NCBI RefSeq assembly: GCF_025398335.1
Contig: NZ_JAODOO010000001.1
Coordinates: forward strand, 186,001 to 250,000
Source: Clostridium sp. CX1
GTDB lineage: Bacteria > Bacillota > Clostridia > Clostridiales > Clostridiaceae
Length of the DNA: 64,000 bases
Direction of reading: 5' to 3'
Shown here: positions 10,963 through 54,018 of the stretch, in pieces
How positions within the stretch are numbered: position 1 is the first letter of the stretch
Layout of the letters: each line of letters opens with the position of its first letter
The notes under the pieces: model-generated
Told to the model about the DNA's origin: nothing
The model's database searches: none
What the model saw: only the letters and a program-made list of their open reading frames with translations
Program-made: the position numbers and the translations under genes

Positions 10963-11296
10963 AAAAAAGTTAAAGCCAGTACTTAATGACTTAAGCACTG
11001 ACTATAATTACATTTTTATAATTACATCCAAAATACCGGTACTCCTATTTTGACACCTATCTCTCGATAGGTGGGTAATCTCACAGATGGCTCTATCGCC
11101 TTCAATGCCATAAAAGGACTCACAAGAAAGTACATATCCACATCTAGATATTGATCTCCCGAAGCTTTAATGTAGGTTCAAAAAAGGAGCTTAACGAATA
11201 TTTCAGAAATCACAATCTATATTAGCGTTATGGGGTACCACTAGGTACCTGTAAACTAGCTTAGATACTGAGTAAACAATGTTACTGTCCTTCGCT
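10963..11296 (-). ncRNA. candidate structured non-coding RNA, family not recognised
   Basis: A 660-bp gap holds no ORF. On the minus strand it shows a promoter (TTGCAT at 11331-11326, 17-bp spacer, TATTAT at 11308-11303). About 330 nt later comes a strong terminator (AGTCAGTGCTTAA pairing with TTAAGTACTGGCT at 11003-10974, then a T-run at 10968-10963). Between them are several hairpins: CACCTATC-GAGA-GATAGGTG with a GNRA loop near 11063, GGTACC-TAGT-GGTACC near 11240, and CAAAATA/TATTTTG near 11038. A long-range ATTTCAG/CTGAAAT pair joins the 5' region to a site 95 bases on. It lacks tmRNA, RNase P, SRP, 6S and T-box signatures. It could be a free RNA or a terminator-controlled leader of the exonuclease gene. 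Confidence 0.5.
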
Positions 11297-35367: not shown

Positions 35368-35961
35368 TTAGGCTTTTATACCATTCCAATATATTTCCCA
35401 TGCTTCGTTAACCTCATCTTTACTTGGTATTTTGTTGGAAGCTATCAGTTCATAAATATATCCATTTAGATTCCTATAAAAGGTTTTCACTAAAGAGTCT
35501 GGAGTTAATTTTCTAAAAAGTTTATTTTGCAAGCCTTTATTGAATAATCCTATTATATAAGAACTAAAAATATCTACCCAATCCTCAAGTTTAGTTCCAG
35601 CTTTTTGTTGAACACCATGTGCTTCATATATGAAGTATCGAAATAAAAACTTGCTGTACTCATTGTTTTCTATAAAAAAGTCCATTGAGACACAAAATAA
35701 ATTATACAACTGATTACTTACATCATCATCTAAAGGGTTTTCCAGGCAAGAATATGTTTTTTTTTCAAAGAGTGCTCTTGCCTCTCTGTGCAAGGTGGAA
35801 AATATCTCTTCTTTCGATTTAAAATAAAAGTATAATGAAGAGGACTTTATACCGACTTCACTGGCAATATCTCTTGTAGTAGTTTCAAAATAACCTCTCT
35901 CATTAAAGAGTTTTAGCGCAGTAAGCTTAATTTTTGATAGCGTATCTATTTCAACACTCAT
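35368..35961 (-). CDS. TetR-family transcriptional regulator
   Basis: I place the start at ATG 35961, 11 bases after AAGGAG; a GTG four codons upstream overlaps that ribosome site. The protein of about 197 residues has the N-terminal helix-turn-helix TTRDIASEVGIKSSSLYFYFKSKEEIF at residues 29-55 and a helical ligand domain. Its target is not evident: there is no divergent transporter gene, and the nearest upstream feature is the leader RNA of the chemoreceptor gene 270 bases away. The 290-base gap downstream shows nothing clear. Confidence 0.88.
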   Translation of the reverse strand: MSVEIDTLSKIKLTALKLFNERGYFETTTRDIASEVGIKSSSLYFYFKSKEEIFSTLHREARALFEKKTYSCLENPLDDDVSNQLYNLFCVSMDFFIENNEYSKFLFRYFIYEAHGVQQKAGTKLEDWVDIFSSYIIGLFNKGLQNKLFRKLTPDSLVKTFYRNLNGYIYELIASNKIPSKDEVNEAWEIYWNGIKA

Positions 35962-36196
35962 TCTTATTTCCACTCCTTCTATTATATTTTTGGTTTTATT
36001 TCTAGATTTGAGTTACTTTCATAGGAGTATCCATCTACTTGAGCCTGATAGTAGATTTATGATTCAGTATTATATTACCAATAACAATATAGTTTTGCAA
36101 AACACTTGCAGATATTCTCCTGTATTGCCTATTTAAAATTTACGTATTTAGTAATTACTAAGCTAAGTGTAAAAAGGATAATATTTAGTGTTTTTT

Positions 36197-36225
36197 TGGC
36201 CTTAGAAACTTGGATAATGTATAAT
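36197..36225 (+). promoter_or_regulatory. promoter of the chemoreceptor leader
   Basis: TATAAT at 36220-36225 with a weak TTGGCC -35 at 36196-36201 (18-bp spacer). Initiation near 36232 is 7 bases before the first helix of the predicted RNA. Confidence 0.5.
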
Positions 36226-36231
36226 TGACTA

Positions 36232-36427
36232 CAATGAAAATCTCTGTTGAAACATTAAATAATAATATGATAATATGGTACTACGGTAGCTTTAATAAAT
36301 GTTTCAAGATAGGCTATAAGTACAAGAGATTGACCTTAATAAGTGTAATTATTTACTAAATGATTGTTGAAAGGAGATATTTATGATTCCATCTTGATGC
36401 AGGAATCAAAGATATCTAATTTTTTAA
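36232..36427 (+). ncRNA. riboswitch-like leader: pseudoknotted domain plus terminator
   Basis: The 5' region of the chemoreceptor mRNA folds into nested helices: AATCTCT (36239) with AGAGATT (36325), and inside it TTGAAACATT (36247) with AATGTTTCAA (36298), 10 perfect pairs. The enclosed loop holds GTACT and TAGC, which can pair with AGTAC (36319) and GCTA (36313) on the 3' side, giving a pseudoknot. About 45 bases later a terminator forms: AGATATTTATGATTCC with GGAATCAAAGATATCT (two mismatches), then TTTTTT. The layout of aptamer, terminator and gene is that of a transcriptional riboswitch. It does not match the c-di-GMP classes I know. The ligand is unknown. Confidence 0.6.
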
Positions 36428-36488
36428 AATACAATCTATCAAATGATAGGTAGGTTAAAATACCAAATAAAAAGTTAGGGGGAAATAT

Positions 36489-38186
36489 ATGAGTAAGTTT
36501 TTTAAAAGATTTAAAGTTAAGACAATAGTTGCTGCAATGATAGTATTATCTATACTCTCTATTGCAATTACGGATTTTTTAGGTTTAACAGGAATAAGTA
36601 CTGTAAATAATAATATGGAAGATTTATACAAGGATAACTTAATAGGTATTACAAGACTTGGATCTGTAAGAAGCGATTTTATAAATATAAGACTAAATGC
36701 TGAAAAGGCCATGCTTAAATACGACAGCGTATATGTGGAGAATATTAAGGTTTATAATGAAAAACTAGAAGCTAGAATAAAACAATTTGAAGAGACTAAG
36801 CTAGATGAGTACGAAACTAATAAAACAAAAGAAATTCGAACTAGTATAAATGAATATATTAATACATGGGAAAAGATTAAGATGGAGATTGAAAATAAAG
36901 AAGAAATTTTAGGAGAAGATAGTAAACGGCTTGAAAGTTTAGGTAATAAGACTGAAAATATTATACTTGAATTAAGAGATTATAATGAAAAGCAAGCAGA
37001 AGAACTAAATTCAGCTAGTGAAAAAATATATCTTAATAAGGTTAAAGAATTGTTTTATACTGGAGTTGTAATCTTATTGCTTTTATCTTTAATAGGATAC
37101 TCTATTATAAAGCTTATTGGAAACTCTATTAATGAAACTATTAATAACTTAGAATTAGTAGCATCTGGAGACTTAACAGCCTCTATACATTCAGATGAAA
37201 AGAATGAGTTTGCAACTATGAAGAAGTCTTTACGTAAAACAGTTGATAATATTAGAGAGATGATTAATGTTATAAAGAGCCAATCTTTAGACATACATGG
37301 AAAGGCTGAAAGCTTCAGTGCTATTTCCGAAGAAATGTCTTCGGTGTCTCAAAATATATCTACAGCTATTGAGGAGGTTGCTCAAGGTACAAGCACCCAA
37401 TCGGAAGAAATAATAGATATAACAGTAATACTTGATGAATTTAATAAAGTTTTAGAAGACACTATAAATGTAATTACAGGAATATCTGCAGGTACAGGCA
37501 ATATTGAAAGTATGGCAGAGGACAGTAACGTTAAAATGAATGACTTAATAGTCTCTATAAAAAATGTACATGAAGTATTCAATGATTTTTCTTTGAAAAT
37601 AAGCAGCTTAGGTTTGAACGTTAATCAAATTAATCAAATCTTGAATCTTATAAATGAAATAGCAGATCAAACTAACCTTCTTTCACTAAATGCATCTATT
37701 GAGGCTAGCAGGGCAGGAGTGTCAGGAAGGGGTTTTTCAGTTGTAGCTGATGAAATTGGAAAACTTGCAGAACAAAGTAAAGTTTCCTCAGTGAATATTG
37801 CTTCATTAGTAAAACAGATTTCTACAGATACAAATACTATGATTGCTACTTCTGACAATTTAAAAAAAGAGTTATTTGAACAACTTAAAATCTCAGAGAT
37901 TGCTATGGTGTCTTTTAACAACATAAAGGAATTAATTAATGACATGACCCCACAAATTAACAATGCAAATCTATCTATGAACTCTATAAAAGAGCAAAAG
38001 AACGCTATCATAGAAAAACTTGAGAGTGCCTCTGCTATTTCTCAGGAGGTATCGGCTTCTGCAGAGGAGGTTTCCGCAAGTACAGAGGAAATGAATGCCT
38101 CTTCTGAGGAAGTAGCAAGTGCTGCCTTGGAACTATCAGACATGACAAAGAAGATAGTTTCTTCTATGGAAAAGTTTAAGCTATAA
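36489..38186 (+). CDS. methyl-accepting chemotaxis protein with four-helix-bundle sensor
   Basis: The 565-residue protein has a membrane segment at about residues 13-33. A helical exterior domain of about 150 residues ([22 protein letters not shown] and following) fits the 4HB_MCP family. A second membrane segment lies near 190-210, followed by HAMP and the signalling domain with tip [24 protein letters not shown]-terminal [21 protein letters not shown] stretch precedes the end. It signals to CheA/CheW. The gene is led by a terminator-bearing structured leader, which suggests control by a small-molecule or second-messenger signal. Confidence 0.9.
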
Positions 38187-53730: not shown

Positions 53731-53737
53731 CTTGTAA

Positions 53738-54018
53738 AGACTATGAAGAGAAAAGTAGATAAATATATGAATTTACAGAGAGCTCTGCAAGGTGAGAATG
53801 AGCAAGGATTTTTTATTGAAAAAGGTCTCAGAGTTGCACACCGAGCTTGGTTTCAGGGGTAGGCTGTGACGGTATAACCCGTTATAAGTTATAGAGTATA
53901 TAGTTAACTACGTACTTGAAAAGGTCTATATGGTGACATATGGATAAACTGAGGTGGTACCACGAAGATATAACTTTCGTCCTCAAGATTAAGATCTTGG
54001 AGGTGAAGGTTTTTTTAT
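53738..54018 (+). promoter_or_regulatory. T-box leader of lysS
   Basis: The leader has the T-box antiterminator core GAGGTGGTACCACG near 53951, a terminator CCTCAAGAT...ATCTTGGAGG (53982-54002) and a T-run. The upstream stem I region has a GAAAAGTAGATAAAT-type start and an AGAGAG element. It senses uncharged tRNA-Lys and allows readthrough into lysS. I did not fix the specifier codon with certainty. Confidence 0.85.

Follow-up and report, generated by a model that had tools for sequence, protein, structure and literature searches.

Is the chemoreceptor gene at this locus, which encodes a methyl-accepting chemotaxis protein (MCP), controlled by a riboswitch of a new class, as an earlier note proposed on the strength of its pseudoknotted, terminator-ended leader, or is it controlled in some other way? 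We examined this question in the window, the whole 64,000-nucleotide stretch of Clostridium sp. CX1 DNA under analysis, in which positions are counted from the first letter; the features discussed below are collected in the table. The anatomy on which the proposal was built is present in the sequence. The TATAAT element, the outer 7-bp helix and the perfect inner 10-bp helix are all found, as are both complementarities between the loop and the 3′ side (GTACT/AGTAC and TAGC/GCTA), the second of which extends to seven pairs, two of them G-U. A hairpin and a T6 run then precede the gene's own ribosome binding site (RBS) and its ATG, and the leader thus has the terminator-ended shape that had been described for it.

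Table. Positions of features in the TetR-MCP intergenic region and of the two flanking genes.
Feature	Position	Strand	Remarks
TetR-family regulator, divergent from the MCP gene	35368-35973	-	TetR_N 2.4e-15; 61% ortholog in G106
Promoter-like pair TTGGCC-18-TATAAT	36196-36225	+	10/12 in promoter scan; RNA start predicted at ~36231-36232
TATAAT element	36220-36225	+	Read from sequence
Possible antiterminator	36234-36384	+	36234-36245 with 36373-36384, 11 of 12 pairs
P1, 7 bp, closes the pseudoknotted domain	36239-36245/36325-36331	+	Read from sequence
P2, perfect 10 bp	36247-36256/36298-36307	+	Read from sequence
Rival promoter-like pair TTGAAA-16-GATAAT	36247-36274	+	10/12; overlaps P2 and its loop
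P3, first part, 5 bp, GTACT/AGTAC	36278-36282/36319-36323	+	Crosses P2
P3, second part, 7 pairs including 2 G-U, extended from TAGC/GCTA	36286-36292/36311-36317	+	Crosses P2
SD AAAGGAG (36370-36376) and micro-ORF ATG ATT CCA TCT TGA (36383-36397)	36370-36397	+	Read from sequence
Intrinsic-terminator-like hairpin with T6	36375-36425	+	Arms 36375-36390/36402-36417; T6 36420-36425
Block that aligns with sequence upstream of the G106 cluster and spans the T-run region and the operator	36414-36458	+	Local score 48
Putative TetR-type operator CTATCAAATGATAGGTAGGTTAA, palindromic, 23 bp	36436-36458	.	21/23 in G106
RBS AGGGGG of the MCP gene	36477-36482	+	Read from sequence; ATG at 36489
Methyl-accepting chemotaxis protein with 4HB sensor domain	36489-38186	+	52% ortholog in G106 (whole protein)

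One of the two complementarities lies inside the other, and together they make up a single helix with an interruption, P3, which contributes roughly -10 kcal/mol when treated as a nested hairpin. P3 crosses P2, which gives the 5′ domain an H-type pseudoknot topology. P1 closes the domain, and a single unpaired base separates it from P2 on one side and from P3 on the other. Two upstream promoter-like pairs, the one containing TATAAT and the one at 36247-36274, are equal in score, and the promoter scan of the region returned five sites, hardly more than the mean of 3.8 in shuffled sequences. The composite score of P1, P2 and P3 (63) was equalled by none of 2000 dinucleotide shuffles, which reached 55.5 at most, and by 2 of the 3550 tiles (109 nt, both strands) into which the window was divided. 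When the pseudoknot is left aside, the nested fold of 36232-36340 is ordinary (z -1.06; 22 of 200 shuffles as good), and that of the whole leader, 36225-36432, slightly unusual (z -1.61; 13 of 200 shuffles as good). Because the earlier note had the whole window from which to choose this place, the pseudoknot score alone is notable and suggestive; it is not decisive and it is no proof.

By sequence and folding, the 3′ part of the leader is a stable hairpin followed by a T-run, as in an intrinsic terminator. Fifteen of its 16 positions pair (one as G-U) around an 11-nt loop, and the folding energy with the tail is -16.3 kcal/mol. The T-run-linked hairpins listed at or below -9 number 321 on both strands of the window, and the leader hairpin is one of the 26 that reach -16.1 or lower; a simple terminator scan, which accepts loops of 3-8 nt only, does not have it in its list. 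No plus-strand ORF of at least 80 aa that the hairpin could end lies between 32774 and 36489. The 5′ arm and loop of the hairpin also hold a strong SD sequence with a four-codon micro-ORF (MIPS); a ribosome on this micro-ORF is predicted to impede the hairpin.

A possible antiterminator could connect the 5′ domain with this hairpin. Its upstream segment contains the 5′ strand of P1, and the pairing competes both with P1 and with the 5′ arm of the terminator. In the RNA 36231-36395, the forced antiterminator (-23.9 kcal/mol) is favoured over forced P1 (-19.8 kcal/mol); in the RNA 36231-36426, the terminator fold (-36.4 kcal/mol, or -36.3 with P1 and P2 forced) is favoured over the forced antiterminator (-30.8 kcal/mol). 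Folding energies thus favour mutually exclusive pairings, while an equally good pairing arises in 77 of 2000 shuffled versions of the 5′ segment. The same terminator arm has a marginally better partner in 36293-36305; shuffling the whole domain gave one as good in 179 of 2000 cases. The antiterminator pairing is marginal.

A riboswitch class consists of an aptamer that is conserved in several genomes, and we found no convincing relative of the leader among the candidates scored. No family of Rfam 15, a library that includes c-di-GMP-II, matches 36100-36500 up to E=10, in agreement with the view of the earlier note that the leader does not look like c-di-GMP-I or -II. The Rfam search that the note had called for therefore gave no strong match to a known class; the homologs from which a covariance model was to be built did not turn up. 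c-di-GMP-I (RF01051), likewise without an Rfam match up to E=10, reached 5.8 bits at best with a single-sequence model run with filters off, and we rejected a degenerate c-di-GMP-I remnant on this ground.

Two single-sequence covariance models of the leader were used, R1 combining P1 with P2 and R2 combining P1 with P3. Because the leader is AT-rich, every genome yielded several hundred first-look candidates. With 19 of these scored per genome in 206 family genomes, neither model found a convincing relative: R1 gave 137.5 bits at its own site and 29.2 bits at the best foreign one, and R2 gave 136.1 and 31.4 bits, the latter value dropping to 25.0 on rescoring. Nor did R2 find one in 391 class genomes, with at most 10 candidates scored per genome and 32.1 bits for the best foreign match. 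R1 and R2 together produced 44 weak foreign loci, 34 of which entered a frame check (L222 could not be judged, and L220 was judged with a shortened interval); 29 of the 33 judged loci sit in stop-to-stop frames of at least 218 codons on either strand, and we rejected these matches as relatives.

As a positive control, a single-sequence model of a c-di-GMP-I aptamer from the own genome matched 31 of 57 genomes (E<=0.01), compared with 33 of 57 for Rfam's own c-di-GMP-I model (E<=0.001), where both counts include the own genome and the control scored up to 73 candidates per genome, more than the leader models did. The core of c-di-GMP-I is unusually conserved, which limits the control. Our genome searches would probably have revealed a conserved class; they could have missed a diverged one, because so few candidates per genome were scored for the leader.

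The models found no match in leader position at the loci of the eight nearest MCP homologs examined and none at 29 MCP loci drawn from the own genome and from members of the genus, blastn found no relatives in plasmids or phages, and the exact P3 pattern is absent from the genome contigs searched. A blastn search of 194 relatives with the leader as query returned matches from 67 genomes including its own, those other than the leader itself being short and mostly AT-rich. Matches to P2 and its loop were considered as conserved promoters and dropped, since of 14 inspected loci, 11 from blastn of relatives and 3 from within this genome, 9 fall inside open frames on the same strand (L002, L004, L011, L017, L019, L024, L028, L029 and L034). 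A scan for the P2 arms pointed to four viral contigs, two of them at 22.8 and 23.3 bits, and was discarded as circular, P2 being the search pattern. Among the open-access papers retrieved, many of them about c-di-GMP riboswitches or motility, none deals with such an MCP leader, judged by title and the start of the abstract. Because no homolog was found that would show conserved pairing, a new riboswitch class, the suggestion of the earlier note, is unsupported by comparison; as far as can be seen from the genomes searched, the leader is specific to its own lineage.

The genes around the leader offer a second line of comparison. Compared over its sensor part, the MCP is closest, among the 206 family genomes, to its relatives in genomes G106 (50% identity) and G266 (46%), and the G106 protein is also the closest ortholog over the whole length. 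In G106, a GGDEF/EAL gene, the TetR ortholog and the MCP gene follow each other on one strand, whereas TetR and MCP are divergent in the window; the MCP gene of G106 starts within about 50 nt after the TetR gene, and no leader is present before the MCP gene in this cluster. The GGDEF/EAL gene preceding the pair (L263, L267) ties the chemoreceptor to c-di-GMP turnover. In G266, a more distant TetR gene (26%) lies directly 5′ of the MCP ortholog. Two further MCP homologs, in G008 (36%) and G278 (34%), have a c-di-GMP-I riboswitch just upstream of the MCP gene (70.6 bits at L239 and 72.8 bits at L240, respectively), and one study places c-di-GMP-I riboswitches upstream of chemotaxis genes (PMC6366702). 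The own genome carries two c-di-GMP-I riboswitches (L068, L069) whose downstream frames, by eye, are not MCP-like. A related-locus search with the MCP protein as query gave no match.

Between the terminator and the gene, 10 nt past the T-run, lies a palindrome that the earlier note had omitted, although its account of the leader elements themselves was correct. This putative TetR operator, CTATCAAATGATAGGTAGGTTAA, recurs at 21 of 23 positions upstream of the GGDEF/EAL-TetR-MCP cluster of G106, and the next best match in 1.5 Mb of retrieved loci has 17 of 23. At up to three mismatches it is the sole site in the own genome, and the viral contigs hold no exact match to it. When any 23-mer of the intergenic region was allowed, 300 shuffles and 18 other MCP loci (both strands) gave a maximum of 19 of 23, a background that the identity with G106 exceeds, though not by far.

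The likeness to G106 continues to the left of the operator, and the aligned block has a score that none of 2000 shuffles equals (maximum 46). In G106, the operator begins 11 nt after the -10 element of TTGAAA-17-TATAAT, a promoter recognised by eye; a position just past the -10 is where TetR-type operators are expected. Because the block extends left over the T-run, the T-run of the window aligns with the G106 promoter -10 and the bases that follow it. The hexamer aligned with this -10 in the window is TCTAAT, and the scan lists no -35/-10 pair directly before the operator; a promoter next to the operator is thus visible in G106 and not listed in the window. G266 has no good operator match, and the highest-scoring local alignment of its sequence with the intergenic region reaches 26, which is shuffle level. 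The TetR-MCP intergenic region also holds a perfect 14-bp palindrome, TTAGTAATTACTAA, at 36148-36161, which we set aside as an operator, its best matches near orthologs carrying three mismatches.

Our preferred explanation, which we put forward tentatively and with confidence just short of an even balance, is that the MCP gene is under TetR control via the operator at 36436-36458, combined with a lineage-specific attenuator-like leader. The adjacent TetR-type repressor would control the chemoreceptor gene through this putative operator, which, judging by the common site and the common gene pair, may have been inherited from an ancestral TetR-MCP cluster. Upstream of it would stand a promoter near 36220, the pseudoknot-capable 5′ domain, and the hairpin with its T-run. 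Transcripts from 36220 would most likely be largely stopped at the hairpin, the antiterminator formed by 36234-36245 and the terminator 5′ arm would let polymerase through, and polymerases past the terminator would then meet the repressor on the operator. Alternatively, the MCP gene may be restarted from a weak promoter beside the operator. The elements themselves, the operator block common to G106 and, within the searches made, the absence of relatives are observed; in this scheme, we infer promoter use, termination, antitermination and TetR binding at the leader and operator. The locus combines what marks a TetR-regulated promoter, an adjacent TetR gene and a palindromic site common to the ortholog, and TetR control thereby appears to have comparative support, which comes from two genomes. 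The occurrence of the operator in only these two also counts against the reading, and some 160-210 nt separate the site from the two upstream promoters listed; a repressor site so far past its promoters is unusual for TetR control. Under TetR control with an attenuator-like leader, moreover, the coincidence of P1, P2 and P3 has no function.

The pseudoknot would have a function if the leader were an orphan riboswitch of one lineage, with an aptamer made of P1, P2 and P3 and a ligand that stabilises P1, frees the terminator 5′ arm and thereby switches the MCP gene off. Such a role would suit the compact topology with its 1-nt junctions, the composite score above all 2000 shuffles, the energy of P3, the two alternative partners of the P1 5′ strand, its own complement in P1 and the 5′ arm of the terminator, and the c-di-GMP-I riboswitches that the MCP homologs of G008 and G278 carry in the equivalent position. 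Yet two window tiles score equally high, Rfam gives no match, the MCP gene of the closest ortholog is not preceded by a leader, and the searches of family genomes (with two models) and class genomes (with one) found no convincing relative in the part of the candidates that was scored, whereas the control model did match other genomes; we consider an orphan riboswitch rather unlikely. We regard as very improbable a single-lineage riboswitch in which an aptamer built on the P2/P3 pseudoknot controls the MCP gene through transcription termination, with a TetR roadblock as a second gate in series. The ligand of such a leader riboswitch could even be c-di-GMP, recognised by an aptamer of an unrelated kind, because MCP relatives carry c-di-GMP-I riboswitches and the ortholog sits behind a GGDEF/EAL gene.

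The region may instead hold two transcription units. The first, 36231-36425, would be a small RNA, or the transcript of the micro-ORF, and would end at a terminator of its own; the second, the MCP mRNA, would start downstream at a promoter that lies next to the operator and is repressed by TetR, in the manner of G106. The close spacing of -10 and operator in that genome argues for this arrangement, as do the inclusion of the window's T-run region in the same aligned block and the strong SD AAAGGAG with its four-codon ORF in the terminator arm; the -10 candidates near the operator (TCTAAT, TAAAAT and TACAAT, by eye), however, lack a good -35, and none appears in the scan; this arrangement is unlikely as well. 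It is also conceivable, if quite unlikely, that the helices arose by chance in AT-rich DNA and that the real promoter is TTGAAA-16-GATAAT at 36247-36274, in which case the RNA would start past the 5′ strands of P1 and P2. Chance would accommodate the score of this promoter-like pair (10/12), a nested fold no better than shuffles and the two equal tiles, but it fits poorly with a combined score that 0 of 2000 shuffles reach and with a hairpin among the 26 strongest of the 321 listed.

TetR control with an attenuator-like leader can be set beside several known systems. The G106 cluster, for which we propose a TetR repressor and a promoter-proximal operator, has in common with the window the adjacent TetR gene, the 23-bp palindrome and the orthologous target; the window differs in its divergent TetR gene and in an operator that comes after a terminator-like hairpin, at the distance from the listed upstream promoters given above. 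The c-di-GMP-I leaders before MCP genes (RF01051; G008 and G278) are also terminator-ended and 5′ of an MCP gene, whereas the window leader is without a c-di-GMP-I match. Pseudoknot and terminator are likewise joined in the leaders of the Guanidine-IV riboswitch and its Gd4v variant, in which the pseudoknot connects two hairpins, the 3′ one resembling a terminator (PMC9788692). Compared by eye with the topology given there, the window leader does not contain two such pseudoknot-joined hairpins: its crossing pairs are inside the P1 domain and none involves the terminator hairpin.

A convincing pseudoknot and terminator anatomy can thus occur without a detectable relative, and comparison with a single orthologous locus supplies a simpler regulator, TetR. 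Were the leader a true riboswitch, it would be a one-lineage aptamer, of the kind missed by conservation-based pipelines. The T-run that overlaps the promoter-aligned block may represent a small case of control-layer replacement. Elsewhere in the window, a T-box leader is found at 53734-53987 on the plus strand (111.7 bits), and a 6S RNA at 11021-11212 on the minus strand scores 50 bits, barely above the gathering score of 46.4.
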